The position numbers and the translations under genes were made by a program. This document shows, in pieces, positions 2 to 64,000 of a stretch of DNA of 64,000 nucleotides. How positions within the stretch are numbered: position 1 is the first letter of the stretch; each line of letters opens with the position of its first letter. The notes under the pieces are model-generated. The model searched no databases. It worked only from the letters and a program-made list of their open reading frames with translations, and was not told the origin of the DNA. The stretch is from Patiriisocius marinistellae (GTDB lineage: Bacteria; Bacteroidota; Bacteroidia; Flavobacteriales; Flavobacteriaceae): positions 62,001-126,000 of the forward strand of contig NZ_BKCF01000004.1 in assembly GCF_009014635.1 (NCBI RefSeq), given 5' to 3'.

Positions 2-901
2 GAGATTATACTTCAACGAAAATCTACAACATCTCTTGCTCCATATGCTGCTAGTTTATTGTTACCGTTGACATTATTGGGGAGTCTAAACAGTAAGGCT
101 TCTTCAAAAGAAAATAAAACTGAAAGTGTATACAAATCAATAGGTATTGGCAAATTTAGTGATACTACAATACCCTCAAAAGCCGTCAACCTTACTATTG
201 GGGTTGTAACGGATGGCTTCGGAAATGCAATAAAAAACGTAAAAATTACTTCTATTGAAACAGGCGTTGTATCCTATACAAATTACAAAGGCGAATATAA
301 AATTACCTGTAATCATGGAGAAACTCTCCTTTTTGAAGCTGCAAATTTTGATCCTTCTAAAATTATTATTAAAAACCAAAATAAAATAAAAAATGTATCT
401 CTAAATAAAAACCAAGCCCTAATAAAAATATCAGGCACAGTGACTGACAGTAGCGGTTTGCCTCTACCTGGTGTAAATATTATTGTAAAAGGCACAACAA
501 GTGGAACACAAAGTGATTTTGATGGGCTTTATAATATAAATGCTGAGGAAGGACAATCCTTAGTTTTTAGCTATGTGGGGTTTGATAATGTTGAAAAAGT
601 TATTTCAGAACATTCAAAAACAATTAACCTAATGATGGAAGAAAACATTACTGGTGGTTTTTATACCGTAGGATTAATTATTTCAGAACCATCAGGCCCA
701 TCAATAATGCCCTTTGGAAACATCTCTTTTGCTTATGATTATGAAAGAGATGCTATTAAGAAAAAACAAAGAGACGCTTATGAAAATGGATTAAAATTTA
801 AGCGTAGAAAATGGAGAGAAAAAAGAGAAGCAAGAAAATTAAAAAGAAAACAACGAAAAGAAAAGAGATTTGAAAAACTAAAAAACAAAAGTAGAAATTA
901 A
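2..901 (+). CDS. CarboxypepD_reg-domain protein, 5' end cut by window
   Basis: The reading frame is open from base 2 with no stop, so the gene very likely begins before the window; the first in-window TTG at 59 is probably not the start. The visible part has a hydrophobic stretch (LAPYAASLLLPLTLLGS), then two carboxypeptidase-regulatory-like beta-sandwich repeats. The second carries the typical GTVTDSSGLPLPGVNI...KGTTSGTQSDFDG signature seen at the N-terminus of Bacteroidetes TonB receptors. It ends in a very basic tail of about 45 residues rich in K, R and E. From memory, some Bacteroidetes proteins join a small cysteine motif to such a hydrophobic segment and this domain; that N-terminal part would lie outside the window. 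The function is unknown; envelope localisation is inferred. Confidence 0.75.
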   Translation, partial: EIILQRKSTTSLAPYAASLLLPLTLLGSLNSKASSKENKTESVYKSIGIGKFSDTTIPSKAVNLTIGVVTDGFGNAIKNVKITSIETGVVSYTNYKGEYKITCNHGETLLFEAANFDPSKIIIKNQNKIKNVSLNKNQALIKISGTVTDSSGLPLPGVNIIVKGTTSGTQSDFDGLYNINAEEGQSLVFSYVGFDNVEKVISEHSKTINLMMEENITGGFYTVGLIISEPSGPSIMPFGNISFAYDYERDAIKKKQRDAYENGLKFKRRKWREKREARKLKRKQRKEKRFEKLKNKSRN

Positions 902-945
902 ACCTTCTAAATTTTAATAAAAACTTTTAAAAAACAGTTAGAGTG

Positions 946-975
946 CTTTGATTTGACAATTCTAATAAATCAAGG
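946..975 (+). other. Hairpin without U tract after first gene
   Basis: CTTTGATTT (946-954) pairs with AAATCAAGG (967-975), 45 bases after the first gene's stop. No T run follows, so intrinsic termination is uncertain. Confidence 0.25.
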
Positions 976-1032
976 AGGTTTCACAATATTAGAGCCAAAT
1001 AAAAGTTATATTTTTACCTAAAATTTTCTTTG

Positions 1033-5186: not shown

Positions 5187-5228
5187 AGGATGCGCTAATT
5201 TTTAATTGTTGAATGTATTTTTTATGCA

Positions 5229-5238
5229 CTTCGGAAAT
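5229..5238 (+). repeat. CTTCGGAAAT element, intergenic copy 1
   Basis: Exact copy followed by TTTAAGGCTTCAAG. See the finding on this 10-mer. Confidence 0.8.
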
Positions 5239-5291
5239 TTTAAGGCTTCAAGAATGTGCTTTTGGTTTAAATTTTTAATGTTTCTAAAAGA

Positions 5292-5301
5292 CTTCGGAAA
5301 T
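5292..5301 (+). repeat. CTTCGGAAAT element, intergenic copy 2
   Basis: Exact copy followed by TTAAAAAAAC, 63 bases after the previous copy and in the same orientation. Confidence 0.8.
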
Positions 5302-5482
5302 TTAAAAAAACAAAAAAATCCGTTATCAAAATACTTAATGGCTAGTATATATTTATTTGGCTATATTTCGGAAGAAAAACAATCAAATCTATAATTTCAG
5401 AAACCAAAAACAACATCATATTACGATACTGTTAATTTCTTCCAAAAATACCAAATCCATACGTGACCTATTCTTAAAATTA

Positions 5483-12212: not shown

Positions 12213-12222
12213 CTTCGGAAAT
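12213..12222 (+). repeat. CTTCGGAAAT element, intergenic copy 3
   Basis: Exact copy followed by TTTAGTC, between the small membrane protein and the SixA-like lipoprotein. Confidence 0.8.
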
Positions 12223-12263
12223 TTTAGTCAATATTTTATCTATAACACAACCAAATTTTCTCG

Positions 12264-12881: not shown

Positions 12882-13614
12882 GCATTACACGCACATTTTC
12901 AGTTTCAATTTTTGAGAGTAATTTTAGGTTATTTTGCTCAAATAACTTATCAAGATCTGTGAGTGGTGTTTCAAGACTTTCAGGCTTGTAGTTATTATAA
13001 TCTACAAAACGAACTCCTTCAATAGTACGTGGATTATACGCTTCTCTAAAACGAATCCCGCCTCCATTTACAGCATAGCTATATGCTAAATAATCTACGG
13101 TAAAATTTGTTTTGTGAACCCAGTACATAAATACATCATCAAAATCTGTCCCTCCTCCTTCTTCTTTAAAAGTAACCTCAATTTTATAATACGGCACATC
13201 GTTTATACTCCCCTCACCCACTAATTTTTTATTAACCGCTGGAGCATTTAATCCATACGGCAACTGAGAAAAATAGTGCACCGAATTTACCCCGTCAACA
13301 ATTTTTATTTTTATAGAATCTGATACATTAACGATAGAATCATTTATTTCTCTTCTGAAATTTGTATTTGAAAATACATCTTTAATAACAGAAACACTAT
13401 CGTGGATAATTCTGCTATAACTATAATTTCCACCATCTCTAGTACTTTGATACTTTCCTTTTCTAAAGTCAAAATCAATGGTTATATTTTCACAATTTCC
13501 ACTACAGGCAGTCTCAATAGCATTATCTATTATTTGTTGTGCGGTTAGTTTTTCTTCGGTATTTGCACAAGAAACAAGAGTCGTAAAAAGGATTATGGAA
13601 AGTATATATTTCAT
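12874..13614 (-). CDS. Uncharacterised lipoprotein (DUF6503-like)
   Basis: A 246-residue lipoprotein with a short signal peptide and lipobox (TTLVSC, cysteine near residue 16). The mature part is beta-rich, with aromatic and acidic segments (YYKIEVTFKEEGGGTDFDDVFMYWVHKTNFTVDYLAYSY, RFREAYNPRTIEGVRFVDYNNYK). These resemble conserved flavobacterial lipoproteins in which a threonine- or lysine-rich sheet packs like LolA/LppX-type folds; I associate it from memory with DUF6503, which I could not check. A pair of cysteines (ACSGNCENI) near residue 37 might form a disulfide. It is divergent from smpB and overlaps the 3' end of the SixA-like gene by 8 bases. Confidence 0.75.
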   Translation of the reverse strand: MKYILSIILFTTLVSCANTEEKLTAQQIIDNAIETACSGNCENITIDFDFRKGKYQSTRDGGNYSYSRIIHDSVSVIKDVFSNTNFRREINDSIVNVSDSIKIKIVDGVNSVHYFSQLPYGLNAPAVNKKLVGEGSINDVPYYKIEVTFKEEGGGTDFDDVFMYWVHKTNFTVDYLAYSYAVNGGGIRFREAYNPRTIEGVRFVDYNNYKPESLETPLTDLDKLFEQNNLKLLSKIETENVRVMLN

Positions 13615-14264: not shown

Positions 14265-16748
14265 ATGAAAAGATTAATTATTGCATTACTTTTTCTCACT
14301 AGTTTCATTTCCGAAGCACAAATTGTTGGTAAAGTTACTAATACTCTTAAAGAACCACTCCCCTATGTAAATGTATACGTGCAAGATACATATACTGGTA
14401 CAACCACAAATGATGATGGAAATTTTGAACTTAATGTGGGACGCGAAGGCATTTACACTATTATCGTCCAATTTTTAGGATATACAAAGGTTACTAAAGA
14501 AATAAATATTAAGTCATTTCCTTACATTTTAAATATCACCTTAAACGAGGAGACAACTAGCCTTGACGAAGTTGTAATAGACAGTGAAGAAGACCCTGCA
14601 AATCGCATTATAAGAGCAACTATTGCTCAGCGCAAAGAAAATTTAGCTAAAATTAGCGAGTACACCGCAGATTTTTACTCTCGTGGTTTATGGAAAGTTG
14701 AAGATGTTCCTGAAAAAATACTTGGTCAAGAAGTAGGTGATCTTGATGGCGCTTTAGATTCTACGCGTACGGGTATTATTTATCTTTCCGAAACAATTTC
14801 AAAAATTTCGTATCAAGAACCTAATGACTTTAATGAGCGCATCATTGCAAGCAAAGTGAGCGGAAGAGATAATGGCTTTAGTTTTAATAGTGCGCAGGAA
14901 TCTACATTTTCGTTTTACGAAAACACCATTGATTTGAGTGCGGCAATTGTTTCTCCTATTGCTAATAACGCTTTTAGTTATTACGATTATAAGCTTGACG
15001 GTGTCTTTTATGAAAATGGCAAACTCATTAATAAAATAAATGTCATCCCTAAAAGACCAAAAGATCGTGTATTTAGTGGGCAAATTTATATTGTTGAAGA
15101 TGACTGGCAACTTTATGGAGTAGAAATTAAAACTACAGGGAGTGCCATCCAAGTCCCCTTTATTAAAGAGATTGTTTTTAAACAAAACTTTAAATATGAT
15201 AGTGAATACGACTTTTGGGTAAAGCTATCTCAAACCATCGATTTTGGTTTTGGATTTATGGGACTTAACGGAGAAGGGCATTATATCTGTAATTATAGTA
15301 ACTACGATTTTAAACCTAATTTTGATAAAAAAAGTTTTAGCAATGAAGTGCTTTCCTTTGAGCCAGAAGCAAACAAGAAAGACAGCCTTTTCTGGAAAGG
15401 AACACGCCCAGTGCCTTTAACAAATGAAGAACTCAATGATTATATAAAAAAGGACAGTTTACAAACATTGCGGCGCTCTAAGCCTTATTTAGATTCGCTT
15501 GATAAAAAATCAAACAAGTTTAGCTTAACTGCCCCATTATTGGGCTATACTTACAGTAAAAGTTATGATAAATGGAGACTTAGTTATGATGGTCCTGTTC
15601 CTGAAATTGCATTTAATACAGTTCAAGGCTATAATAGTAGCGCGGGATTGAGCTTCTTTAAATGGTATAATGAAAATCAAACAAACTGGCTCGCAGCATC
15701 TGTTAATGCAACCTACGGGATTGATGAAGACAGATTTAGATTTACTGGACGCATTACTAAAAATTTTAATCGAAAAAATAATTTAAGGGTTTCAATTTCC
15801 GGAGGAAGCAAACTCGAACAATTTAATGCTAGTGAACCAATTTCGCCATTGATTAATAGCATTGCGACGTTGTTTTTTGAGCGCAATTATATGAAATTGT
15901 ATGCTCTTGATTTTGTGCGTTTTAATTATCAGCAAGAATTATTTAACGGTCTAGAAACTCGCGTACGCTTGGGCTATGAAAATAGAAGTCCCATTTTTAA
16001 TAATTCAAATCATTATTATATTAATAATGGTAGTGATGTGAGTTATACTTCAAACAATCCATTGACACCTGCAGATTTTGATAATTCTGCAATTGACGAG
16101 CACTCTATTTTTAAAAGTAATATAGCATTGCGTATTACGTTTGGGCAAAAATATTTTTCAAATCCTGATATGAAATTTAATATTGGTAATGAATTATATC
16201 CACAACTTACTCTTCGATTTGAAAATGGATTAGGCGCATCAAATAATAATTATAATTATAGCCAATTAAGCGGAGAATTGTATCAAGATTTTTCCCTCGG
16301 AAATAAAGGCGAATTTTACTATCGCGTTAAAGGTGGAACCTTTTTTAATGGCGATGATATAAGCTTTGCTGATTATCAACATTTCAACGGAAACCAAACT
16401 AGAGTAGGCACTTCACCTAATTATACAAATACTTTTAATCTATTACCATATTATGATTTGAGTACTAACCAAAATTATTTAGAAGGACACTTAGAACACG
16501 ATTTTAAAGGTTGGATCCTCGGAAAAATTCCTGGTATTAATCAACTTAATTTTAACCTAGTTATTGGCGCTCACATATTAGCTACAGACAGCAGAAAGCC
16601 ATACTCAGAATTCTCAGTAGGTATTGATAATTTAGGTTTTGGTAACTATCGATTACTCCGTGTTGATTATGTACGTTCTAATTACAATGGTGTAAAAGAC
16701 GGTGCATTTATATTTGGGTTAAAGTTTTTAGATTTATTGGGGTTGTAA
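14265..16748 (+). CDS. DUF5686/carboxypeptidase-like outer-membrane protein
   Basis: An 827-residue exported protein. The start at 14265 gives a clean signal peptide (MKRLIIALLFLTSFISEAQ); the in-frame ATG at 14247 would only add six residues. After it comes a CarboxypepD_reg-like domain (GKVTNTLKEPLPYVNVYVQDTYTGTTTNDDGNFELNV) ending in the SLDEVVI motif seen at the edge of TonB-receptor plugs. The long remainder matches the DUF5686 layout (ANRIIRATIAQRKEN..., then beta-barrel-like strands ending in VKDGAFIFGLKFLDLLGL). It is probably an outer-membrane beta-barrel of unknown substrate, not a classical TonB receptor. The bases encoding the signal-peptide end (ISEA) contain one CTTCGGAAAT element in reverse. 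It converges on pcm with a one-base gap. Confidence 0.85.
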   Translation: MKRLIIALLFLTSFISEAQIVGKVTNTLKEPLPYVNVYVQDTYTGTTTNDDGNFELNVGREGIYTIIVQFLGYTKVTKEINIKSFPYILNITLNEETTSLDEVVIDSEEDPANRIIRATIAQRKENLAKISEYTADFYSRGLWKVEDVPEKILGQEVGDLDGALDSTRTGIIYLSETISKISYQEPNDFNERIIASKVSGRDNGFSFNSAQESTFSFYENTIDLSAAIVSPIANNAFSYYDYKLDGVFYENGKLINKINVIPKRPKDRVFSGQIYIVEDDWQLYGVEIKTTGSAIQVPFIKEIVFKQNFKYDSEYDFWVKLSQTIDFGFGFMGLNGEGHYICNYSNYDFKPNFDKKSFSNEVLSFEPEANKKDSLFWKGTRPVPLTNEELNDYIKKDSLQTLRRSKPYLDSLDKKSNKFSLTAPLLGYTYSKSYDKWRLSYDGPVPEIAFNTVQGYNSSAGLSFFKWYNENQTNWLAASVNATYGIDEDRFRFTGRITKNFNRKNNLRVSISGGSKLEQFNASEPISPLINSIATLFFERNYMKLYALDFVRFNYQQELFNGLETRVRLGYENRSPIFNNSNHYYINNGSDVSYTSNNPLTPADFDNSAIDEHSIFKSNIALRITFGQKYFSNPDMKFNIGNELYPQLTLRFENGLGASNNNYNYSQLSGELYQDFSLGNKGEFYYRVKGGTFFNGDDISFADYQHFNGNQTRVGTSPNYTNTFNLLPYYDLSTNQNYLEGHLEHDFKGWILGKIPGINQLNFNLVIGAHILATDSRKPYSEFSVGIDNLGFGNYRLLRVDYVRSNYNGVKDGAFIFGLKFLDLLGL

Positions 16749-20167: not shown

Positions 20168-21406
20168 TTGGCAAAAATAATTCCATTTAAAGCAGTTCGC
20201 CCCACACGGGATAAGGTGAGTCTTATTGCAGCAAGGTCGTATGATAGTTATAGACCAGAGCAAGTGGAAGCTAGACTCCGCGACAATCCATTTTCTTTTT
20301 TACACATTGTCAACCCCGGTTATAAATATCAACAAGTAACAAGTGGCGCTCAACGCTATAAACTAGTTCGTAATCGGTATCAAGAATTTAAAGAAGATGA
20401 GTATTTTATTAAGGATACTGCCCCCTCATTTTATATTTATAAAATAGTAAACCGCGACGGTCTTGAATTTAATGGCATTGTTGCTGCTGCAAGTGCTCAG
20501 GATTATGAAGATGATGTTATAAAAAAACACGAAGACACACTAGAATATAAGGAGACTATATTTGTTGAATACTTAAAAACCGTAGGTTTTAATGCAGAGC
20601 CTGTACTACTAACTTACCCTGACAATAAAGATCTAGACTCTATTATTGCCAAAATAATGGAGACAAGAGCAGAGTATGAATTTACAACAACATACAGAGA
20701 CACTCACTATATGTGGCCTGTCGCAAATGTTGAATTAGTTACTCAAATTACCAGCATATTTGCTGAAATAAAAACACTTTACATTGCAGATGGGCACCAT
20801 AGAAGTTCATCATCTTATCTACTAGCAAAGAAATCAGAGGCTGAAAATGATAAACATAATGGAACAGAATCTTATAACTTTTTTATGAGTTATTTGATTC
20901 CTGAAAGTGATTTAAAAATATATGAGTTTAATAGGCTCATAAAAGATTTAAACGGACTAAAGAAAGACGAATTTTTAATAAAACTTGATGAAATTTTCCG
21001 AATTGAAAATAGAGGACATGAATATTACAAACCCTCAAAGAAGCATCATTTTAGTATGTATCTAGATGGCGATTTTTATTCGCTCTATCTTCGAAAGGAC
21101 TATTATACTATAAATAATGCCCTTGATGCGCTGGACACTCATATATTATATGCTACAATTTTAAAGCCCATTTTAGGAATTGAAGATGTAAGAAATGACA
21201 CTCGGTTAGAATATTCGCATGGCAAAAACGATTTAGCATTTCTTAAAAGTGCCGTTGATAAGGGGGAATTTGCCGTTGGATTTGGTATGCTTCCTGTAAC
21301 TACTTCGGAAATGAAACAAATTGCAGATGAGGGACTAAAAATGCCACCTAAGAGTACATATATAGAACCAAAACTTCGTAGTGGGGTGACCATTTATGAG
21401 TTTTAA
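20168..21406 (+). CDS. DUF1015 family protein
   Basis: A 412-residue DUF1015 protein. The opening AKIIPFKAVRPTRDKVSLIAARSYDSYRPEQVEARLRDNPFSFLHIVNPGY and the strictly conserved ADGHHRSSSSYLLAKK motif identify the family; the histidines suggest a phosphatase- or kinase-like metal site, but no function is established. Translation starts with TTG at 20168, because the family opens with M-A-K-I and no ATG lies nearby. In other Bacteroidetes this family is, from memory, often next to serA/serC; here it is not. It contains one CTTCGGAAAT element, in frame T-S-E-M. Confidence 0.9.
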   Translation: MAKIIPFKAVRPTRDKVSLIAARSYDSYRPEQVEARLRDNPFSFLHIVNPGYKYQQVTSGAQRYKLVRNRYQEFKEDEYFIKDTAPSFYIYKIVNRDGLEFNGIVAAASAQDYEDDVIKKHEDTLEYKETIFVEYLKTVGFNAEPVLLTYPDNKDLDSIIAKIMETRAEYEFTTTYRDTHYMWPVANVELVTQITSIFAEIKTLYIADGHHRSSSSYLLAKKSEAENDKHNGTESYNFFMSYLIPESDLKIYEFNRLIKDLNGLKKDEFLIKLDEIFRIENRGHEYYKPSKKHHFSMYLDGDFYSLYLRKDYYTINNALDALDTHILYATILKPILGIEDVRNDTRLEYSHGKNDLAFLKSAVDKGEFAVGFGMLPVTTSEMKQIADEGLKMPPKSTYIEPKLRSGVTIYEF

Positions 21407-21565: not shown

Positions 21566-22222
21566 ATGTCTGAAATTTCAGAAAACATAAAAAAATATAA
21601 AACTGAGTTACCTAAAAATGTTACACTTGTAGCAGTATCAAAAACAAAACCTGTTGAAGATTTGATGGAAGCCTACGAAGCTGGTCAACGTGTTTTTGGT
21701 GAGAATAAGATTCAAGAAATGGAATCTAAATGGCAAGAAATGCCTAAGGATATTGAATGGCATATGATTGGACATGTGCAACGTAACAAGGTTAAATATA
21801 TGGCACCGTTTGTTAGTTTGATTCATGCAGTGGATAGTTTAAAATTGTTAAAAGAAATCAACAAACAAGCTTTAAAAAATGATAGAAAAATTAACTGCCT
21901 CTTGCAGATAAAAATTGCCGAAGAGGATAGTAAATTTGGAATGGAAGCCTCACTTGCTTCAGAAATATTAATTTCAGAAGAATTTAAAGAATTAAAAAAT
22001 GTTTCGGTCGTAGGATTGATGGGAATGGCTACATTTACAGAAGACGAAAGTCAAGTAGCTTCAGAATTTGAAAGATTGAAAGTGATTTTTAAAAATTTCC
22101 GAAGTAAACATTCAGCATTAAAAACACTGAGTATGGGCATGAGCGGTGATTATAAGCTTGCGATTGAACATGGCAGCACTATGGTACGCATAGGTAGCTC
22201 TATTTTTGGAAGCCGAAATTAA
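21566..22222 (+). CDS. YggS-family PLP homeostasis protein
   Basis: A 218-residue PLP-binding protein of the YggS/PROSC family, which keeps free pyridoxal phosphate low and lacks a known catalytic reaction. The alanine-racemase-like barrel is visible: the PLP lysine in LVAVSKTKPVEDLMEAYEAG, then FGENKIQEMESKW, WHMIGHVQRNKVKYM (IGxxQxNK), and the phosphate-binding end SMGMSGDYKLAIEHGSTMVRIGSSIFG. Length and start are standard. It probably leads a short plus-strand run with the nuclease gene 35 bases downstream. It holds one CTTCGGAAAT element in reverse, in a different reading frame from those in other genes. Confidence 0.95.
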   Translation: MSEISENIKKYKTELPKNVTLVAVSKTKPVEDLMEAYEAGQRVFGENKIQEMESKWQEMPKDIEWHMIGHVQRNKVKYMAPFVSLIHAVDSLKLLKEINKQALKNDRKINCLLQIKIAEEDSKFGMEASLASEILISEEFKELKNVSVVGLMGMATFTEDESQVASEFERLKVIFKNFRSKHSALKTLSMGMSGDYKLAIEHGSTMVRIGSSIFGSRN

Positions 22223-24544: not shown

Positions 24545-25452
24545 AAAAAAAGCCACTACTCGTCTGTGTTGTAGGTGCTACTGGAATAGGAAAAACAGCA
24601 CTTGCAATTAAGATAGCAAATTTTTTTTCTACTGAAATTTTAAGTGCAGATTCTAGGCAATTTTTTAAAGAAATGGAAATAGGAACTGCAGTTCCATCAC
24701 CAGAAGAACTTGCAGCAGCACCACATCATTTCATTCAACATAAAAGTATTTTTGAAAAGTACACAGTAGGTGATTTTGAAAAGGAGGCATTGTTAAAACT
24801 TTCAGAGCTATTTCAAAAACATTCTATTGTTGTAATGGTAGGAGGCTCAGGATTATATGTAGATGCAGTTGTAAAAGGGCTTGATACATTTCCGAAGGTA
24901 GATGTAAAAACAAGAGAAGTTCTTAACCAAGAGCTTTCAACTTATGGAATTGAAAAATTACAAAAAGAGCTTAAAGACGTTGACTCAACTTATTATAACA
25001 ATATAGATATTGATAACCCTAGGCGCGTTATTAGAGCACTTGAAGTTTCTCGTAGTTCTGGAAAACCGTACTCTTCTTTTTTAAATAAAAATAAAAATAA
25101 CAGAGCATTTAATACATTGTTTATTGGCATCACAGCTGAGCGTCCCATAATTTATAACCGAATAAATCGTAGGGTTGACCTTATGGTCACGGCTGGTTTA
25201 ATAGAAGAGGCAAAAAACCTTGAAGAACACAAAGAATTAAATGCGTTACAAACTGTAGGCTATAGAGAGTTATTTAAATACTTTGATGGTTTTTACACAA
25301 AGGAAGTTGCTGTTGAAGAAATTAAAAAGAACACTCGTAGATTTGCTAAACGCCAAGGTACTTGGTATAAAAAAAACAATGAAATCTCATGGTTTAACTA
25401 TGATACACCAATATCGAAGGTAATTGATTTTATCAATGAAAAAACGCCCTAA
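24541..25452 (+). CDS. miaA: tRNA dimethylallyltransferase
   Basis: A 303-residue enzyme that adds a dimethylallyl group to A37 of tRNAs reading UNN codons, the first step toward ms2i6A. The P-loop VVGATGIGKTALAIKIA, the conserved STEILSADSRQFFKEMEIGTA with DSRQ, the GGSGLYVDAV loop, and NPRRVIRALEV are all present. The C-terminal QTVGYRELFKYF and RRFAKRQGTWYKK are also typical. The start ATG overlaps the stop of the channel gene. One CTTCGGAAAT element lies inside the gene (as T-F-P-K). The stop codon lies in the terminator hairpin. Confidence 0.97.
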   Translation: MKKKPLLVCVVGATGIGKTALAIKIANFFSTEILSADSRQFFKEMEIGTAVPSPEELAAAPHHFIQHKSIFEKYTVGDFEKEALLKLSELFQKHSIVVMVGGSGLYVDAVVKGLDTFPKVDVKTREVLNQELSTYGIEKLQKELKDVDSTYYNNIDIDNPRRVIRALEVSRSSGKPYSSFLNKNKNNRAFNTLFIGITAERPIIYNRINRRVDLMVTAGLIEEAKNLEEHKELNALQTVGYRELFKYFDGFYTKEVAVEEIKKNTRRFAKRQGTWYKKNNEISWFNYDTPISKVIDFINEKTP

Positions 25453-28430: not shown

Positions 28431-29326
28431 TTGAATATTAAAAAATCTATTTTTTTTGTAGTAAGTTCCGCATCTTTGATTTCCTTCGGAAATGTAACAA
28501 TTTCAGGAATCATAAAGTTTTCTTCAGAATTTCGTTTAGCATAATCACAAATAACTTTAAAGTCTTCTGCCCTTATTTCATTAAATAAACTAAGCGATAC
28601 AGTAAAATCAACCTCTACCCTATTAGGTATTAGTTTAATCGAACCACTTTGCGGAGCATTAATAAGTTTAACAGGTACTGTTACAATTTTTTGTGAAAAC
28701 TCTTCAACTTTCAAAGCATAAGTAATTGAAGTTTCTTCCATAAAAACATCGTTTGATATTAAAGGATTTAATGGAATTTTAACTCTTAAGGATTTGTCAA
28801 TATTATCTCTGTTAAATTTAATGGTTGAAATTTCAGAAATACTATCCAATAATTTTAATGGTCCTTTTAATAAAATAGAATCTGGGTTAATTTTAGCAGC
28901 TCCCACTCCATCAAACCCATTTTTAAAGGTTATAGATGTAATTGGTTTTACAGGAACTTTCTTAGTTTCAATATCATCCAAATTGATTTCAAGTTCGTTA
29001 ACCGAAATATTTCGAATTGTTAAGTTTTTATTTACCTGATTAAGTATTAAAAGCTCTAAAGTAGCCTTGTCTACAATTGCTTTCTTTTTTGATGACACTA
29101 AATAAGCCCCGACATCAACACGTATAATTGGGGTTTTTGTGCCATAATATATTGCTTCAAATTTATTTGACTGTAAATCAAAGGTTAAAGTGGATAGGTT
29201 ATCATTTGCTAATAATTTATCTGTTGGCACATTTACATATTCAATATTAGCTTTCACTTCAGAAATGTCTTTCCTTGAAAATTTTGTGAGCACCCAAAAA
29301 ATTGATGACAACAGCAAAAAGAACAA
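28427..29326 (-). CDS. YbbR-like domain protein, start uncertain
   Basis: A protein of about 299 residues anchored by one N-terminal transmembrane helix (FFLLLSSIFWVLTKF). Repeated YbbR-like beta domains follow, with motifs such as VNVPTDKLL, ETKKVPVKPITSITFKNGF and VPVKLINAP. YbbR proteins in Firmicutes bind and tune the cyclic-di-AMP synthase; in Bacteroidetes the role is unclear. The first usual start codon in the frame is TTG at 29326, but about 16 codons upstream are also open and encode a basic stretch (SPFRNTKIKAF) expected before the helix. There is no ATG or GTG there, so an ATT (29336-29338) or ATC (29363-29365) start is possible. It overlaps coaE by 4 bases. Confidence 0.85.
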   Translation of the reverse strand: MFFLLLSSIFWVLTKFSRKDISEVKANIEYVNVPTDKLLANDNLSTLTFDLQSNKFEAIYYGTKTPIIRVDVGAYLVSSKKKAIVDKATLELLILNQVNKNLTIRNISVNELEINLDDIETKKVPVKPITSITFKNGFDGVGAAKINPDSILLKGPLKLLDSISEISTIKFNRDNIDKSLRVKIPLNPLISNDVFMEETSITYALKVEEFSQKIVTVPVKLINAPQSGSIKLIPNRVEVDFTVSLSLFNEIRAEDFKVICDYAKRNSEENFMIPEIVTFPKEIKDAELTTKKIDFLIFK

Positions 29327-29377: not shown

Positions 29378-30379
29378 TTATTTAAAGAATAACTTCGGAA
29401 ACTGTTTCTCGGGATCCCGTTTGAGCCATCCAATATAGTATGTTGAAACTAAAAAACCCCTTCCATAGCCAAAAAACTGAATGAACAATGCTCGTATTGT
29501 TAATAGCCCAATATATAAACTTCTATTTTTTAAAGACGAATCTATAAAAACTATAAATATATAAAAGAGCAAGGGTCCTATTAATGAGTAATGAAATACA
29601 ATAGCCAGTACAATCGATGAGAACACAAAACATATAAACAAGGTGGGTAGCCAAAACGTAAGCTTCGCCGCTTTAGGATGCCATACATTAAGAATTGGTC
29701 TTACTAAACCAAATTTATTTACTTGTATATAAAATTTCTCCCATGATATACGGCGTTTATGATAAACAAATGCTTTAGGAATAAATGCTGTTTTAAATCC
29801 TTTTTTTTCTATTCTCTGAGATAAGTCTGGATCTTCACCTGGATGTATTTTTGAAAATCCTTTAGTAGCTTCAAATACTTCTTTTGAAATACCCATATTA
29901 AAACTTCTGGGTTCAAATTTTTGAACTGCGTTTTTATTTCCTCTTATTCCTCCAGTAGTTAAAAGAGATGTCATTACATAATTAATTGCTTTTTGTAATG
30001 GTGAAAAATCATCATGAGCAGCATCAGCCCCTCCATAACAATCAACATATGTTTCATTTAAAAAATCATTGACAATTTCTAGATAATTTTGTGGAATTAT
30101 ACAATCTGAATCTAAAATAATAAAATAGTTTCCGTTTGCAATTTGCATCCCAATATTTCTTGAGTCGCCTGGACCAGTATTATGCTTTTGATGATAATTA
30201 ATATTTAATTTACTTTCAAATAATTTAGCAACATGCTGAGAATCCTCAGTAGATCCATCCTCTACAATGACCACCTCAAAAGGTATTTTAGTTGTCATTT
30301 CAGAAAAACTTATTAATAATTCCTGCACTTCTTGAGGTCTATTGTATACGGGGATTATGAAAGAATAATAGCGTTGCAT
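29378..30379 (-). CDS. Family 2 glycosyltransferase with C-terminal membrane helices
   Basis: A 333-residue GT-A glycosyltransferase. SFIIPVYNRPQEVQELL and VVIVEDGSTEDS bind the nucleotide sugar, ILDSDC is the DxD-like metal motif, and GEDPDLSQRIEKKG is the acceptor-side ED motif. From about residue 230 there are three or four hydrophobic segments (FWLPTLFICFVFSSIVLAIVF and following), so the enzyme is membrane-bound and probably extends a surface glycan or lipid-linked sugar. The acceptor is unknown. Its stop codon is in the same frame as the YbbR gene that follows, so they likely share a transcript. The -7 promoter box sits four bases before the ATG. Confidence 0.93.
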   Translation of the reverse strand: MQRYYSFIIPVYNRPQEVQELLISFSEMTTKIPFEVVIVEDGSTEDSQHVAKLFESKLNINYHQKHNTGPGDSRNIGMQIANGNYFIILDSDCIIPQNYLEIVNDFLNETYVDCYGGADAAHDDFSPLQKAINYVMTSLLTTGGIRGNKNAVQKFEPRSFNMGISKEVFEATKGFSKIHPGEDPDLSQRIEKKGFKTAFIPKAFVYHKRRISWEKFYIQVNKFGLVRPILNVWHPKAAKLTFWLPTLFICFVFSSIVLAIVFHYSLIGPLLFYIFIVFIDSSLKNRSLYIGLLTIRALFIQFFGYGRGFLVSTYYIGWLKRDPEKQFPKLFFK

Positions 30380-33641: not shown

Positions 33642-33670
33642 AATAAATTTACAATTAGTTAATAATATCT

Positions 33671-37295: not shown

Positions 37296-38502
37296 GTATC
37301 TTTTTACTAATATGTTCTAAAATATCCTTTGCAACTTCCTGCTTTGATTTAACATCAAAAGGAGTCACTTTATTGTCTTTTTCAACAAAAGTAACCTTAT
37401 TGGTATCAGCTTTAAAACCTGCTCCTTTGTCTCTTAGCGAATTTAATACAATTAAGTCTAAATTCTTTTTTTCAAGTTTCTTTTTTGCATTTTCAAGTTC
37501 GTTCTGTGTTTCTAATGCAAAACCTACTAAAAACTGCGACGTCTTTATTTCTCCAACCGATGCTAAAATATCCTGTGTTCGTTCTAACACAATAGTCATT
37601 CCTTCGCCAGCTTTTTTCTTAATTTTTTCTTCGGAAATATTAATGGGGCGATAGTCTGCAACTGCTGCACTAAATATAGCAACATCACAATCCCTAAAAT
37701 TATTATGAACAGCCTTATACATTTGAGCAGCTGTTGTTACTCTAAGTACATTTATCTTCTCTTCATCCACCATAACCGAAGATGGCCCTAAAACTAAAAC
37801 AACCTCAGCACCCATTCTTAAAGCAACATCAGCAATGGCACATCCCATTTTTCCGCTGGAGTGATTTCCTATAAATCTTACTGGATCAATAGCTTCAAAA
37901 GTTGGTCCTGCAGTTACAAGTACTTTTTTTCCTTTTAATGGTAAATTTTTAGAAATTTCGGCTTCCACAAAACTAATTATAGTTTCGGGTTCTGCCATTC
38001 TTCCTTGTCCCACTAATCCGCTGGCTAATTCACCATGTGCTGCTGGAATTCTAATATTTCCGAAGCTATCTAAAGTATCAAAAGTATTTTTAGTTGAAGG
38101 GTGTTTGTACATGTCTAAATCCATCGCTGGAGCATAATAAACAAGACATTTTGCTGAAAGATAGACCGCAAGTAAAATATTATCACAAGTACCATGCGCC
38201 ATTTTTGATAGCGTATTTGCAGTTGCCGGAGCAATTATAAACAAGTCTGCCCAAAGGGCTAACTCAACATGGTTATTCCATTGGGCAGTATCATCTTCTT
38301 CGTTAGTAAACGAAGAAAAAACTTCATTTTTTGAAAGCGTGGAAAGCGTTAATGGGGTGACAAAATCTTTTGCCGATGGGGTCATTACAACTTTCACATC
38401 TGCCCCTGCTTTTACCAGCAATCGTACTAAAAAACTAGCCTTGTAAGCGGCAATACCTGCCGTAACGCCAAGTAAAATATTTTTTCCGCTTAGGACTGAC
38501 AT
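37288..38502 (-). CDS. coaBC: Bifunctional phosphopantothenoylcysteine synthetase/decarboxylase
   Basis: A 404-residue two-domain CoA synthesis enzyme. The N-terminal CoaC flavodoxin-like domain (1-180) has GVTAGIAAYKASFLVRLL, the histidine-containing NNHVELALWADLFIIAPATANTLSKMAHG, and APAMDLDMYKHP. The C-terminal CoaB domain (190-404) has VLVTAGPTFEAIDPVRFIGNHSSGKMGCAIA and ADYRP, then KKKAGEGMTIVLERTQDIL and LVGFALET. Together they turn phosphopantothenate plus cysteine into phosphopantetheine. It lies 2 bases after rpoZ and overlaps the porD-like gene. It contains two CTTCGGAAAT elements, one on each strand. Confidence 0.97.
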   Translation of the reverse strand: MSVLSGKNILLGVTAGIAAYKASFLVRLLVKAGADVKVVMTPSAKDFVTPLTLSTLSKNEVFSSFTNEEDDTAQWNNHVELALWADLFIIAPATANTLSKMAHGTCDNILLAVYLSAKCLVYYAPAMDLDMYKHPSTKNTFDTLDSFGNIRIPAAHGELASGLVGQGRMAEPETIISFVEAEISKNLPLKGKKVLVTAGPTFEAIDPVRFIGNHSSGKMGCAIADVALRMGAEVVLVLGPSSVMVDEEKINVLRVTTAAQMYKAVHNNFRDCDVAIFSAAVADYRPINISEEKIKKKAGEGMTIVLERTQDILASVGEIKTSQFLVGFALETQNELENAKKKLEKKNLDLIVLNSLRDKGAGFKADTNKVTFVEKDNKVTPFDVKSKQEVAKDILEHISKKIHA

Positions 38503-44116: not shown

Positions 44117-45040
44117 TTAATTTTTAATGGAACATCGTAACATACGGTCTTTGCCAAACATATCTTTTTTAATTTCAACACCACCAAACCCTTCACCCAC
44201 AAGCATTTCTCGCATCTCCTTTCCAAGATACTCATTTATCTCAAAATATAATAGCCCGTTTACTTTCAAGTTCGTTTTTGCCAGTTTTGCAATGGTACGA
44301 TAAAAAATTAGCGGGTCTTCATCGCTTACAAATAACGCCCCATCAGGTTCGTATTTTAATACATTTTCCTGCATCATTTGTTTTTCTAAATCTCGCACAT
44401 AGGGCGGGTTAGAAACTATAACGTCGTATCGCTTCGGAAATGAGGTAGCATTAAGCACATCTAGCTCCATGAAGTTAACCAAAACCTTATTCAAAATAGC
44501 ATTTTTTTCAGCCATTTTAAGCGCCTCCTTTGAAATATCAAGTGCAGAAACAGAAACCAATGGTAATTGTTTTGCCAACGAAATTGCTATACAACCAGAA
44601 CCTGTACCAATATCTAAAATTTCAATATTATTTTCAATGTACGCTGTAATCGGAAGGGTTGCTGAAATTTGTTTTTTTGAATTTTCTTCTGTTTTTATTT
44701 TCAAATTTTCTTTTTCACTTGTCAAAATCCACTCAACCAACTCTTCGGTTTCTGGTCTTGGAATTAACGTGTGTTCATTTACGTTAAATTGTAATCCATA
44801 AAATTCAGTATGTCCTATTATATACTGTATAGGTTGATTGTTCTTTAACCTTGAAAGAGCATCTCTAAACTTAAGCAATACTGCTTCTTCAAGATTCTGA
44901 GACTTATTCAAGGAAACCTCAAAGCGTGAATACCCTAAAATTTCTGAAGATAGAATAGAAAAAAAGTTTTGTATCTCTTCTTTAGGATATTGTTCTAAAA
45001 GCTCCTTTTTAAAATCTATTTGAAATTCTTGTAGCGTCAT
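44117..45040 (-). CDS. prmC: Release factor glutamine methyltransferase PrmC
   Basis: A 307-residue SAM methyltransferase that methylates the Gln of the GGQ motif in release factors RF1 and RF2. The N-terminal helical domain is followed by QPIQYIIGHTEFYGLQFNVNEHTLIPRPETEELVEWIL, SAM motif ILDIGTGSGCIAISLAKQLP, and the catalytic NPPY (YDVIVSNPPYVRDLE). I start at the ATG 45040 (MTLQEFQIDFKKELL), one base after the upstream GNAT stop; the longer frame to 45121 would overlap that gene. One CTTCGGAAAT element lies in the gene. Confidence 0.95.
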   Translation of the reverse strand: MTLQEFQIDFKKELLEQYPKEEIQNFFSILSSEILGYSRFEVSLNKSQNLEEAVLLKFRDALSRLKNNQPIQYIIGHTEFYGLQFNVNEHTLIPRPETEELVEWILTSEKENLKIKTEENSKKQISATLPITAYIENNIEILDIGTGSGCIAISLAKQLPLVSVSALDISKEALKMAEKNAILNKVLVNFMELDVLNATSFPKRYDVIVSNPPYVRDLEKQMMQENVLKYEPDGALFVSDEDPLIFYRTIAKLAKTNLKVNGLLYFEINEYLGKEMREMLVGEGFGGVEIKKDMFGKDRMLRCSIKN

Positions 45041-45554: not shown

Positions 45555-46625
45555 GTGAAAATACACGAAAAATATATGTCTCGCTGCATTCAGCTAGCTA
45601 AAAATGGACTGGGAACAACGTACCCTAATCCGCTAGTTGGTAGCGTAATTGTACATAACAATATAGTTATTGGCGAGGGATGGCACTACAAAGCAGGCAG
45701 CCCTCACGCAGAAGTAAACGCTATAAATGCTACGGAAATGAGGTTTGCTTCGGAAACGAGCCGTCTCAACACTATTTTTAGTGAGGCTACAATCTATGTG
45801 AGTTTAGAGCCTTGTAGTCATTACGGAAAAACACCACCCTGTGCCGATTTAATAATTGAAAAAGGCATTAAAAAAGTAGTAATTGGAAGCACAGACCCAA
45901 ATCCAAAAGTAGCCGGAAGAGGTATTAAAAAACTAATTGAGGCTGGTTGCGAAGTTATCTTAGGCATACTTGAAAATGAATGCGACACATTAAACAAACG
46001 TTTTTTTACATTTCAGAATAAAAAGAGACCCTTTATTATTTTAAAATGGGCAGAAACTACTGATGGATTTATTGCACCGCTATCTAGAGAAGAAAAAGCA
46101 CCAGTATGGATTACAAATAAACAATCAAGGCAATTTACCCACAAAATGCGCACTGAGGAACAAGCCATTTTAGTAGGCACAACTACTGTCCTTAAAGACA
46201 ACCCAAGTTTGACAGCACGTGATTGGGAAGGGAATTCTCCTGTGCGAGTGGTTATAGATAAAAATTTAAAAATTTTAACCACAGCTTCAATTTATGACGA
46301 AAAAGTGAAAACAATTATACTCACAGAAGTTACTAAAGAGAATAATGGAAATCTTTTTTTTGAAGCACTTAAAATTTCCGAGGACATTCCAAATCAAATT
46401 TGCAAAACCCTCTATAAACATTCTATTCAAAGTGTGATAATTGAAGGAGGAACTCGTACAATCCAAGCATTTATTGATACAAATCTTTGGGATGAAGCAT
46501 TTGTATTTAAAGGAAATAGCACTTTTAAAAAAGGAGTTCAATCCCCTGTTTTAAAAGGAAAAACAATTGAAAAAACACTAATTAAAGGAGACGAGTTAAT
46601 TTATTTTAAAAATCAATCTTTATGA
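45555..46625 (+). CDS. ribD: Riboflavin deaminase/reductase RibD
   Basis: A 356-residue two-domain enzyme. The N-terminal deaminase has the zinc motif HAEVNAI and PCSHYGKTPPCADLI (H, C, C ligands). The C-terminal reductase has LKWAETTDGFIAP, AILVGTTTVLKDNPSLTAR and GG-T motif IIEGGTRTIQAFI. It carries out two riboflavin steps after GTP cyclohydrolase II. Translation starts at GTG 45555. Between HAEVNAI and the EATIYVSLEPCSH strand there are about 20 residues instead of the usual 10-11; the extra DNA contains two degenerate copies of a CTTCGGAAATGAG unit (see findings). Overlaps the EamA gene by 4 bases. Confidence 0.95.
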   Translation: MKIHEKYMSRCIQLAKNGLGTTYPNPLVGSVIVHNNIVIGEGWHYKAGSPHAEVNAINATEMRFASETSRLNTIFSEATIYVSLEPCSHYGKTPPCADLIIEKGIKKVVIGSTDPNPKVAGRGIKKLIEAGCEVILGILENECDTLNKRFFTFQNKKRPFIILKWAETTDGFIAPLSREEKAPVWITNKQSRQFTHKMRTEEQAILVGTTTVLKDNPSLTARDWEGNSPVRVVIDKNLKILTTASIYDEKVKTIILTEVTKENNGNLFFEALKISEDIPNQICKTLYKHSIQSVIIEGGTRTIQAFIDTNLWDEAFVFKGNSTFKKGVQSPVLKGKTIEKTLIKGDELIYFKNQSL

Positions 46626-50261: not shown

Positions 50262-50271
50262 CTTCGGAAAT
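50262..50271 (+). repeat. CTTCGGAAAT element, intergenic copy 4
   Basis: Exact copy, followed by TTTAAAACC, just after the dnaA terminator and 16 bases before the phosphatase start. Confidence 0.8.
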
Positions 50272-50287
50272 TTTAAAACCTGAACAA

Positions 50288-59747: not shown

Positions 59748-59757
59748 CTTCGGAAAT
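59748..59757 (+). repeat. CTTCGGAAAT element, intergenic copy 5
   Basis: Exact copy, followed by TTT and then the stem of the gap terminator, AAAACACC. It lies 11 bases past the gap stop. Confidence 0.85.
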
Positions 59758-59760
59758 TTT

Positions 59761-59804
59761 AAAACACCGCAATCTTAGTCATTCGATTAAAATTGCGGTG
59801 TTTT
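59761..59804 (+). terminator. Intrinsic terminator of gap
   Basis: AAAACACCGCAAT (59761-59773) pairs perfectly with ATTGCGGTGTTTT (59792-59804). Confidence 0.85.
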
Positions 59805-61250: not shown

Positions 61251-61260
61251 CTTCGGAAAT
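61251..61260 (+). repeat. CTTCGGAAAT element, intergenic copy 6
   Basis: Exact copy, followed by ACT and the stem AAAACCAC of the next terminator. Same arrangement and spacing as the copy before the gap terminator. Confidence 0.85.
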
Positions 61261-61303: not shown

Positions 61304-61351
61304 TCATTTTATTTTTAAAATAGTTTTATAACCAATCCAATCTACTTCATT

Positions 61352-61797
61352 ATGAAGATTGTTAAAGCCACTCTAGATAACTTAGTAGTACTAGCTCCAC
61401 TATTTAATGGATACAGAATATTTTATAAACAAGATTCAAATTTGGATGGCGCTAAAAAATTTTTAAAACAACGCTTCAACAAGATAATTCTTTTATTTTT
61501 CTAGCAATTTCAGAAGATGGAGAAGCAATGGGTTTTACGCAACTGTACCCAAGCTTTTCTTCGGTATCTATGCAACGTACATTTATATTGAATGATTTAT
61601 TCGTCGCAGAAAATTTCAGAAAAAAAGGTGTTGCAGAAGCATTGTTAAGTCGTGCAAAAGAATTTACAATCTCTAATAATTCAAAAGGCCTCACTCTTGA
61701 AACAGCAATTGATAACCCTGCACAAAAATTATATGAGCGGATGGGATGGAAAAAAGATACAGCCGTATTTCATTACACTTGGGAGTCTTTAATTTAA
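61352..61797 (+). pseudogene. GNAT acetyltransferase broken by a one-base frameshift
   Basis: The first frame starts at ATG 61352 (MKIVKATLDNLVVLAPLFNGYRIFY) and stops at TAG 61502-61504. From about 61483 a second frame continues the protein without a break: DNSFIFLAISEDGEAMGFTQLYPSFSSVSMQRTFILNDLFVAENFRKKGVAEALL, ending at 61797. Joined, this is a normal GNAT of about 148 residues, with the acetyl-CoA loop RKKGVAEAL and the C-terminal NPAQKLYERMGWKKD. The junction AACAAGAT would read AAC-AAA-GAT with one extra A. Either a real one-base deletion (pseudogene, or phase variation), or a sequencing error. A shorter product from ATG 61528 would lack the N-terminal strands. Confidence 0.8.
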
Positions 61798-61926
61798 AAA
61801 CAAAATTCTATCATTAATTATATTGATGTGAGCACTCTTAAACCTTTCGTTCTGTTTTTTTTCTGCAATAGTTGCGTACTACTTCCTAAAACTAAAATTC
61901 TTATATTTATCAGTAACATTATTGCT

Positions 61927-64000
61927 ATGAAATCTCATTACGTTATTTTTTTCTTGCTATTCTTTTGCTTCACAGGAATTTCCGAAGCACAAGACGTGGA
62001 ATTATATCAACAATTTAATGGACAATATGACTATCTCGCTTTTGGAAACACGCTTAACACAGGCGAAAATACTGGTGCAACCCCTCCCACTCCTTGCGTT
62101 ATCTTAACTTCAAGTAGTGCTCAATTTGAATTACAACCTGGGCAAGAGCTAATAGCTGCATATCTTTATTGGGCAGGTTCTGGAACTGGAGATTTACAAG
62201 TTAATTTCAATGGTACGCAAGTTACCTCAGAAAGGACTTTTAGTGACAACCTTGGGCCAGACCTTGTTTATTTTGCAGCATTTGCAGATGTTACTTCAAT
62301 TATTGCCGCAAGCGGAAACGGAACTTACACATTATCTGAGTTAGACCTTACAGATGTCATAGCCGATTATTGCGGAAATACCACAAATTTTGCCGGCTGG
62401 GCTGTTACAGTTATTTATGAAGACGCAACATTACCTCTCAATCAAGTAAGCATATTTGATGGGCTTGAAAGTGTTTCTTCCGCTAATAATAGTTTGAGTA
62501 TTGAACTAAACAATTTAAATGTATTAGATAATGTAGGTGCGCGTATTGGTTTTACAGCTTGGGAAGGAGACCAATCACTCGCAGTAATGGAACAATTATT
62601 TATTAACGGAAACTTAATTAGTAATCCTCCATTAAACCCATCTGACAATGCGTTTAATGGAACAAACAGTTTTACAAATCAAAATAATATCTATAATATG
62701 GATATTGACACATATTCCATTGAAAACAATATAAATCCTGGCGATACATCTGCATTGATTAGTTTGACCTCTGGACAAGATTTTGTCATGATTAACAATG
62801 TGATTACAGTATTAAATAGCGAATTACCAGATGCTACAATTACCATAGATAATACAGTGGGAGGTACCCTTTGCGGCAACCGAAATATCACAGTAGAGTA
62901 TACCGTATATAATATAAATAGTACCGACGAGCTTCCTGCAAATACACCTATCGCTTTTTATGTCAATAATACAATTATAGGACAAACTCAAACAACTGCA
63001 ATTATACCTATTGGTGGACAAGAAACTGGCAGTATTAACTTGACAGTTCCAGAAAATCTAGGACCAGATTTTGCCCTAAGGACAGCTGTAGATGATAATG
63101 GAAATGGAACAAGTACCATTAATGAAATAAACGAAGACAATAATGAGTTTTCTCTTGATTTTCATTTGCTTGAATTTCCAAATCTCAATGCACTTGAAGA
63201 CTTAGAGCGCTGCGATGCGGTGGGTATTGAGTTATTTAATTTAAATGATGCTCTTGACCAAGTTGATCCTTCATTGATTATAACATTTCATTTAACTCAA
63301 GATGATGCAATCAATAATATAAACCCTATTCTCGACCCTATAAATTTTGAAAACACAGAAAATCCACAAACAATTTATGTGAGAGCAGACAATACAGAAT
63401 GTAATATTACAGACAGCTTTACTGTCGAAGTTATTGTCTGTCCTATACCAGATGCTACCATTGAACTTGCAGATAACTTAACCGCATGTAGAGGACGAGA
63501 ATTTAATTTTGATTACACTGTTTTTAATACGTTAGGAACAGCAACATTACCGCCTGAAACACCTATTGCATTTTACACTGAAGGTATGTTAATAGGTCAA
63601 ACAATAACACAAAACCCCATTGCAATTGGTGGAAGCGAAATAGGAAATATTACAATAGAATTTAACGAAACTACTCCAGATAATTTTTTTATAATTGCCA
63701 TTGTAGACGACTTAGGTACAGGCATTGGTGTTGTTGAAGAACTTGATGAAACTAATAATGAATTTATGAGTTCTGTATCTTTTGCATCTATTCCAGCAAT
63801 AACAAATCTTCCTAATTTAATGGAATGCAATATAGGCTATGGTTCTGCAATTTTTGATTTAACAGTTCAAGACAATTTAATTTCTAATAATAATGAAGAT
63901 ATAATTAATTATTTTACTTCTCCAGAAAACGCAATCGCAAATCAATTTCAAATTGAAATTCCTGCTGCTTATCAAAGTAGTGGTGGAATTCAAACAATAT
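61927..64000 (+). CDS. Large secreted repeat protein, 3' end beyond window
   Basis: ATG at 61927 opens a frame that stays open to the window end (at least 691 codons). A signal peptide (MKSHYVIFFLLFFCFTGISEAQ) is followed by beta-sandwich regions (VILTSSSAQFELQPGQELIAAYLYWAGSGTGDLQVNF; TFSDNLGPDLVYFAAFADVT). Then come at least two CARDB-like repeats with the pattern LCGNRNITVEYTVYNINSTDELPANTPIAFYVNNTIIGQTQT / ACRGREFNFDYTVFNTLGTATLPPETPIAFYTEGMLIGQTIT, each followed by VDDNGNGTSTINEINEDNNEF or VDDLGTGIGVVEELDETNNEF. Between them are LEDLERCDAVGIELFNLNDA-type segments common in flavobacterial T9SS cargo with a type B (gliding-associated) tail, which is expected after the window. Probably a surface adhesin. 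Confidence 0.85.
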   Translation, partial: MKSHYVIFFLLFFCFTGISEAQDVELYQQFNGQYDYLAFGNTLNTGENTGATPPTPCVILTSSSAQFELQPGQELIAAYLYWAGSGTGDLQVNFNGTQVTSERTFSDNLGPDLVYFAAFADVTSIIAASGNGTYTLSELDLTDVIADYCGNTTNFAGWAVTVIYEDATLPLNQVSIFDGLESVSSANNSLSIELNNLNVLDNVGARIGFTAWEGDQSLAVMEQLFINGNLISNPPLNPSDNAFNGTNSFTNQNNIYNMDIDTYSIENNINPGDTSALISLTSGQDFVMINNVITVLNSELPDATITIDNTVGGTLCGNRNITVEYTVYNINSTDELPANTPIAFYVNNTIIGQTQTTAIIPIGGQETGSINLTVPENLGPDFALRTAVDDNGNGTSTINEINEDNNEFSLDFHLLEFPNLNALEDLERCDAVGIELFNLNDALDQVDPSLIITFHLTQDDAINNINPILDPINFENTENPQTIYVRADNTECNITDSFTVEVIVCPIPDATIELADNLTACRGREFNFDYTVFNTLGTATLPPETPIAFYTEGMLIGQTITQNPIAIGGSEIGNITIEFNETTPDNFFIIAIVDDLGTGIGVVEELDETNNEFMSSVSFASIPAITNLPNLMECNIGYGSAIFDLTVQDNLISNNNEDIINYFTSPENAIANQFQIEIPAAYQSSGGIQTI

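Follow-up and report, generated by a model that had tools for sequence, protein, structure and literature searches.

The window analysed here, a stretch of 64,000 nucleotides from Patiriisocius marinistellae (contig NZ_BKCF01000004.1, positions 62,001 to 126,000), carries dnaA together with a series of other protein-coding genes, and is dotted, within genes as well as between them, with copies of a 10-base word, CTTCGGAAAT, which is the subject of this report. An initial annotation of the window had listed 16 exact copies, all of which were found at the start and on the strand indicated, and the six described as intergenic are indeed so located. Of three additional nine-base matches, the one at 29393 was correctly placed, while the starts of the other two were off by one base and are corrected in Table 1, where all copies are reported, either as the bare word or with its downstream extension (CTTCGGAAATnTnA). 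In 100 dinucleotide shuffles of the window the word occurs on average 0.17 times and never more than twice. Sites differing from it at no more than one position are 37, for 4.59 expected.

Table 1. Copies of CTTCGGAAAT, related forms and other features, in window coordinates
Feature	Position	Strand	Location
CTTCGGAAAT	217..226	+	inside ORF 59-901
CTTCGGAAAT + extension	5229..5242	+	intergenic, gap 5186-5522 between divergent ORFs
CTTCGGAAAT + extension	5292..5305	+	intergenic, gap 5186-5522 between divergent ORFs
CTTCGGAAAT + extension	12213..12226	+	intergenic
CTTCGGAAAT	14307..14316	-	inside DUF5686 gene 14247-16748
CTTCGGAAAT	21303..21312	+	inside DUF1015 gene 20168-21406
CTTCGGAAAT	22095..22104	-	inside Ala_racemase_N gene 21566-22222
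CTTCGGAAAT	24888..24897	-	inside IPP transferase gene 24541-25452
CTTCGGAAAT + extension	28484..28497	+	inside YbbR-like gene 28427-29326
CTTCGGAAAT + extension	37629..37642	+	inside DFP/Flavoprotein gene 37288-38502
CTTCGGAAAT (38056-38065) + extension	38052..38065	-	inside DFP/Flavoprotein gene 37288-38502
CTTCGGAAAT	44432..44441	+	inside methyltransferase gene 44117-45121, PrmC_N match
CTTCGGAAAT + extension	50262..50275	+	intergenic, 45 bp past dnaA stop codon
CTTCGGAAAT + extension	59748..59761	+	intergenic, 12 bp past stop of Gp_dh (GAPDH-type) gene
CTTCGGAAAT	61251..61260	+	intergenic, 15 bp past ORF 59962-61236
CTTCGGAAAT	61978..61987	-	inside ORF 61828-63999, which exits the window
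One-mismatch form CTTCGGAAAC	29393..29402	+	
One-mismatch form CTTCGGAAAA	34074..34083	-	
One-mismatch form CTTCGGAAAC	45748..45757	+	
Sister word TTCTGAAAT, example	13353..13361	+	one of 14 in the window, 1.83 expected
dnaA	48787..50217		
1077-residue protein, Por secretion tail and P domain	30450..33683		in one of the longer word-free gaps (28484-37629)
ORF, open reading frame.

The whole genome assembly (3,338,299 bases in 30 contigs, 99.95% complete) contains 833 copies, 428 forward and 405 reverse, against 16 (4 + 12) for the reversed word, used as control; the resulting density, about one copy per 4.0 kb, equals that of the window. Composition and placement were evaluated on a 464-kb sample (13.9% of the genome), made up of the window and of 20 pieces, each 20 kb long and taken from four contigs, to which the counts in this and the following three paragraphs refer, unless otherwise indicated. 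The sample holds 129 copies, for 1.0 expected under a third-order Markov model; a fifth-order model predicts 17.8, a value inflated by the word itself, since the model is trained on the same DNA. When the ten letters were rearranged in 20,000 ways, the resulting words averaged 0.77 copies and, among the rearrangements listed, those exceeding 16 copies overlap CTTCGGAAAT or its complement. No other 10-mer with at least four G/C is as common, the complement excepted. The word differs from its own reverse complement, hence is not a palindrome of the type of the highly iterated palindrome HIP1, and is thus a short non-palindromic word in large genome-wide excess. A genome count close to the Markov expectation and an excess limited to the window had been named in advance as contrary outcomes, and neither was observed.

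With a simple ORF caller, coding sequence makes up 89.5% of the sample and intergenic DNA 10.5%. The intergenic fraction hosts 53 of the 129 copies (41%), an approximately fourfold over-density in non-coding DNA (p = 2e-19). The other 76 (59%) are inside genes, 35 on the same strand and 41 on the opposite one, and use all six frame-strand combinations, the most frequent of which, with 25 copies, reads I-S-E on the gene strand. The 35 copies located in gaps between co-oriented genes lie at a median of 57 bp from the stop codon upstream. Strand bias and spacing, both proposed as checks by the initial annotation, were evaluated by using local GC skew as a proxy for replication direction in the former case: 66 copies lie on the locally G-rich strand and 63 on the C-rich one (p = 0.86), or 54 versus 59 when the skew is taken per whole 20-kb stretch. 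A 75% strand bias is excluded, the probability of observing 66 or fewer copies being 5e-9. Copies are distributed among 20-kb bins more evenly than in a Poisson process (chi2 = 10.46, 22 degrees of freedom, lower-tail p = 0.018). Close pairs are enriched, as 11 of 108 neighbouring pairs are within 120 bp, for 3.5 expected, and 10 of the 11 are inverted. Within the window, GC skew is below zero between about 24 and 46 kb and close to zero from there on; the replication origin may thus be nearby, but skew also tracks gene direction.

Alignment of the 129 sites revealed conserved positions on both sides of the word. Upstream, T is found at -3 in 66% and at -2 in 57% of the sites; downstream, T occupies +11 in 98 sites (p = 3e-23) and A occupies +13 in 82 (p = 2e-12), and a second, A-rich patch follows at +22 to +24 (A in 71, 61 and 67 sites). 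The two AT-rich downstream patches are therefore about 11 bp apart, approximately one helical turn; the AT tracts of the Haemophilus uptake signal sequence (USS) are spaced as well. The extended form can be written as TTnCTTCGGAAATnTnA plus the further A-rich patch, no conservation being seen beyond about +24 in the aligned sites. Single-base variants are unevenly represented. The commonest, G5 to T, is present in 36 copies, for 2.6 expected, followed by G5 to A and T3 to G (13 each), T10 to A (11), T3 to A (10), C4 to T (9, for 3.2 expected), T10 to C (8) and A7 to C (7), while variants at C1, T2, G6, A8 and A9 do not exceed 3 copies each. To judge from the sequences, such position-specific tolerance resembles the recognition profile of a site read by a protein more than it does decay by mutation.

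A sister word, TTCTGAAAT, is present in 126 copies, against 11 for its reverse, and shares the same TnA extension; in the whole genome the corresponding figures are 764 and 73. Within the window, 13 of its 14 copies are on the minus strand. The excesses of the two words are correlated over 202 of 209 genomes (rho = 0.39, p = 1e-8, kinship being ignored), and the ratio of TTCTGAAAT to its control has a median of 8.4 in the 8 word-rich genomes of this set versus 2.4 in the rest. TTCTGAAAT is a probable weaker form of CTTCGGAAAT.

The distribution among relatives was evaluated at different levels. The family is taken to be Flavobacteriaceae, on account of the named relatives: the best LigA matches (77-79% identity, among the best 80 loci) are from Aureisphaera, Altibacter, Aequorivita, Cochleicola, Ulvibacter and metagenome-assembled genomes (MAGs). 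A genome was counted as word-rich if it reached 100 copies and four times the number of the reversed control; among family genomes at least 90% complete, 20 of 394, belonging to 10 of 203 genera, fall in this class, and the median ratio of word to control is 0.73 over 202 family genomes. Named species were compared by using the nine-base core CTTCGGAAA, and ten of 27 genomes are given here, with controls in parenthesis: Ulvibacter antarcticus 1166 (93), Altibacter sp. HG106 921 (91), Psychroserpens burtonensis 698 (67), Cochleicola gelatinilyticus 613 (76), Subsaximicrobium wynnwilliamsii 531 (117), Aequorivita aquimaris 493 (91), Maribacter flavus 125 (103), Winogradskyella ursingii 61 (58), Algibacter marinivivus 24 (70) and a Dokdonia MAG 15 (59).

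Within the genus (11 genomes), five genomes are rich in CTTCGGAAAT, with 833, 605, 474, 345 and 239 copies, and six are poor, with 34, 23, 21, 20, 12 and 6, for reversed controls of 9 to 18. The poor ones (G003, G004, G006, G007, G008 and G010) are assemblies of 1.7 to 2.1 Mb, 77 to 90% complete, but size alone is not decisive, because one word-rich assembly (G005) is also of 1.9 Mb and 59% complete. Since a trace above the Markov expectation remains in stretches sampled from the poor congeners (6 copies versus 0.04 in G007, 2 versus 0.13 in G010, 1 versus 0.02 in G003; in the 20 kb sampled from G006, 0 versus 0.01), loss of the word seems likelier than its original absence. In DNA that could be aligned to the word-rich congeners, which is 71-73% identical and where any 10-mer is exactly conserved in 5-8% of cases, few copies are found at the same place (1 of 9 in G001, 0 of 3 in G002, 0 of 2 in G009); in G001, two more sites show a single-base difference and a third one a gap. 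In word-poor congeners exact copies are 2 of 11 in G007, 2 of 11 in G010 and 1 of 10 in G003. All these counts are small and include some duplicates, stretches L005 and L200 overlapping by 6 kb. Word-rich species thus keep the density while most places turn over, which fits accumulation through biased uptake better than fixed functional sites. As a separate observation, several unrelated 9- and 10-mers occur each about 14-19 times in 260 kb of G010 (L196, L197, L204, L220-L229), which suggests a longer repeat family in that genome.

The Dokdonia MAG (G420; stretches L256-L259 and L217) was found to contain another word in massive repetition, the palindrome TTAYGCTTTCGCGAAAGCRTAA. In 100 kb of this genome, TTTCGCGAAAGC gives 53 strand matches, corresponding to about half as many sites, 19 of the 53 being intergenic. 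The core TCGCGAAAGC gives between 1006 and 1999 strand matches in five genomes, from genera g10, g161 and g175; none of the other 389 exceeds 56. Since TTAYGCTTTCGCGAAAGCRTAA is palindromic, it may belong with the HIP1-like elements instead of the uptake words. A mild excess of TCGCGAAAGC is present in congeners G001 and G002 (43 and 45, versus 4 each for the reversed control), and is barely seen in G000 (13 versus 5). The five genomes rich in the Dokdonia word carry 1, 1, 2, 11 and 12 copies of CTTCGGAAAT; mutual exclusion of the two words was considered and discarded, as the lack of overlap is uninformative when 20 and 5 rich genomes among 394 are expected to overlap 0.25 times.

Genes possibly involved in transformation were searched in a panel of up to 37 genomes. 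The motor of type IV pili and type II secretion (PF00437) has no match in this genome at an E value of 0.001; across 30 genomes, 4 gave matches below 1e-100, 5 over the cut-off and 21 some match. A different set of proteins is suggested by a transposon screen in Riemerella anatipestifer, where, according to PMC8459023, transformation requires ComEC, DprA, ComF and RecA, as well as a surface protein with DUF5689 and its neighbour (a presumed barrel with a carboxypeptidase-regulatory domain), a HhH protein and a DUF1343 protein, these last four being unlike known transformation machinery. The genome analysed here contains ComEC (found in 36 of 37 genomes), DprA (37 of 37), the HhH domain PF12836 (37 of 37, 36 of them with a frame of 282-314 residues) and DUF5689 (35 of 36, 34 over the cut-off). 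Its DUF5689 protein has 472 residues and a lipoprotein-like start (L200 9784-11202, minus strand), and its gene directly follows that of a 952-residue protein (L200 11238-14096, minus strand), which has the same domain as the adjacent Riemerella protein and is taken to be the barrel. The AlphaFold model of the lipoprotein (predicted local distance difference test, pLDDT, 82.7 on average) gave partial-length matches to cleaved-adhesin and carbohydrate-binding jelly rolls, and no nucleic-acid-binding fold stood out among the best 50 of 1392 matches. The best panel match of this protein (66%) is from a word-rich genome of another genus. DUF5689 is enlarged, with two matches per frame, in G001, G009, G112, G251 and G365 (L173, L166, L164, L167 and L165, respectively), and the G404 frame is longer, with a single match.

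On the basis of its anatomy, CTTCGGAAAT is probably a DNA uptake signal, with an estimated probability of about 0.6. The three roles proposed by the initial annotation were an uptake signal, a Chi-like site and a segregation site. By the test which it had itself laid out, the genome-wide excess, the lack of strand bias and the even spacing favour the first, while the balance of the strands speaks against the other two. The first reading is also favoured by the downstream AT-rich patches, the preference for intergenic DNA, the position-specific mismatch tolerance, the weak conservation of places, the occurrence in some related genera, and the presence of several counterparts of Riemerella transformation genes, among them the adjacent barrel and DUF5689 genes. 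The organism would be naturally competent, and a surface reader on competent cells would bind the word in free DNA, so that import begins; the word would thereby raise uptake, and fragments bearing it would be preferentially taken up and recombined. Copies would then build up wherever proteins and regulation tolerate them. The reader would belong to the barrel-plus-DUF5689 surface pair or its partners, as part of a machinery other than the pilus.

Several results weigh against this interpretation. ComEC, DprA, the HhH protein and DUF5689 are present in word-rich and word-poor genomes alike, and none of them tracks CTTCGGAAAT. The DUF5689 protein of this genome is 56-58% identical to those of word-poor congeners, versus 37-49% for the word-rich ones; it was therefore dropped as the obvious reader, its identity not following word content. 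That the word was lost in the six poor congeners through loss of transformation genes is likewise not supported, as ComEC, DprA and the HhH protein are present in all six (the ComEC match being incomplete in G006), and DUF5689 in five, none being found in G008. Five of the six aligned copies of the poor G007, G010 and G003 sit at the same place here, so that some places are old, and the result on positional conservation rests on few sites. The p value for even spacing is no better than 0.018. A milder pattern is seen in one relative (G365; 220 kb, core CTTCGGAAA), with 9 of 53 copies intergenic versus 9.7% of the DNA, and strands by skew at 31/22. The sister word is skewed inside genes (24 same-strand versus 64 opposite copies), and because of this biased orientation codon usage may contribute to its excess. 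Known uptake words are those of type IV pilus systems (PMC12616744), whose motor gave no match in this genome. Finally, the k-mer table of PMC7965970, covering R. anatipestifer, R. columbina and F. johnsoniae, does not include such a word and has only A/T-rich words for Riemerella; it is limited to the three commonest words per length by raw count, and the question is left open there.

The same observations were evaluated in the light of other possible functions. An intracellular chromosome-organising site, bound by a nucleoid or segregation protein at rather even spacing, would be consistent with the spacing itself, the strand balance, the position-specific mismatch tolerance, the sharing among related genera and the enrichment in close inverted pairs (10 of the 11 within 120 bp). 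Such a role is nevertheless unlikely, as few positions are shared between word-rich congeners, and in six congeners the word is about as sparse as its reverse, which would be odd for an essential chromosome function; moreover, known nucleoid sites are mostly palindromic, polar or regional. A polarity word for segregation, of the type of the FtsK-orienting polar sequences (KOPS), was rejected on the 66/63 partition by local GC skew. Balanced strands are the reason for rejecting KOPS, Chi and other polar signals in general. For a Chi-like site, regulating a recombination nuclease of the AddAB/RecBCD type, the chances are small. The genome does code for a PDDEXK_1 (PF12705) protein of AddB-like size, with a second PF12705 protein of about 1,050 residues within several kb in most of the panel, and Chi sites reach a similar density in E. 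coli. PF12705 is however found in 37 of 37 genomes, rich or poor in the word, no bias toward the leading strand is seen within the limits of the skew proxy (66/63, 75% bias excluded), the preference for intergenic DNA is strong, and known Chi words are short and G-rich, unlike ten bases followed by AT patches.

A function in RNA, with the word marking transcript ends or regulatory sites, is suggested by the short distance from the upstream stop codon in co-oriented gaps (median 57 bp, 35 copies), by CTTCGG, which resembles a stable RNA tetraloop, and by the close inverted pairs formed by some copies. We regard it as very improbable: genes contain 76 of the 129 copies, in either orientation, no stem or T-run common to the 16 window copies is visible by eye, and conservation stops at about +24. 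A regulatory or terminator element was rejected as the main role on coding share and orientation. An origin from a dispersed repeat, of which the word would be a relic, or from codon usage or mutation, as an artefact, is hardly credible at all. The predominance of the I-S-E frame (25 of 76 coding copies) points in this direction, but all six frame-strand combinations are used, intergenic copies are over-represented, and the average for 20,000 words of identical composition is 0.77 copies. Flanks are not conserved beyond the AT-rich patches, a reason for rejecting a mobile repeat as well.

If CTTCGGAAAT is indeed an uptake signal, uptake tags exist outside the two proteobacterial families known for them. 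Such codes would have arisen more than once and would need no pilus, sequence would gate gene flow among flavobacteria, and inclusion of the word in constructs may aid the transformation of environmental laboratory isolates. The coexistence of word-rich and word-poor species in one genus would offer a natural experiment on the gain and loss of these codes. A broader proposal, to which we give slightly less than even odds, is that of a third, independent bacterial code for self-DNA, consisting of lineage-specific words in some Flavobacteriaceae, i.e. CTTCGGAAAT and its core around Ulvibacter, Altibacter and Aequorivita, and possibly TTAYGCTTTCGCGAAAGCRTAA in the Dokdonia MAG and genera g10, g161 and g175, read by an outer-membrane barrel plus a surface lipoprotein and not by a pilus. 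A search of the open-licence literature, the only part covered, returned no report of an uptake word in Flavobacteriaceae; papers listed as containing the words were unrelated to judge from their titles, and nothing was returned on palindromes.

Different known systems share features with the one described here. Cyanobacterial HIP1 and other highly iterated palindromes are short words of very high copy number and debated role; they differ from CTTCGGAAAT in being palindromic, as the word of the Dokdonia MAG is. A close anatomical parallel is found in the USS of Pasteurellaceae (Hin-USS and Apl-USS), whose core, of about 9-10 bp, is not palindromic and occurs in hundreds to thousands of copies, with adjoining AT tracts, no orientation bias, a majority of copies in ORFs, over-density in non-coding DNA and some inverted pairs. 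For Haemophilus, PMC7811141 describes a 9-bp core in 1,465 copies, with AT tracts, and PMC1939737 reports that 65% of the H. influenzae uptake words are in ORFs, with a non-coding share above expectation, that uptake words are not palindromic and show no orientation bias, and that about 10% occur as inverted repeats; copies in ORFs are only 35% in N. gonorrhoeae, against 59% for CTTCGGAAAT. The DNA uptake sequences (DUS) of Neisseriaceae are likewise short words in high copy number, with related words, or 'dialects', in related species (PMC12616744). The same source describes these two families as the only ones known for such signals, with inner cores GCGG for USS and CTG for DUS. The reader of DUS is ComP, a minor pilin, and PpdA/ComN has been proposed as a further minor-pilin reader in the pilus-linked systems. 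Neither core is contained in CTTCGGAAAT or its complement, the phylum is not that of Pasteurellaceae, and the search for the pilus motor gave no match; for these reasons CTTCGGAAAT is not a member of the pilus-linked DUS/USS systems. A likeness of another kind links the genome to Riemerella anatipestifer and R. columbina. The term 'uptake sequence' is not used in the transposon-screen paper (PMC8459023). R. columbina prefers to take up its own DNA, as stated in PMC7965970, and ComEC, DprA, the HhH protein and the adjacent barrel-plus-DUF5689 pair of Riemerella are all present here.

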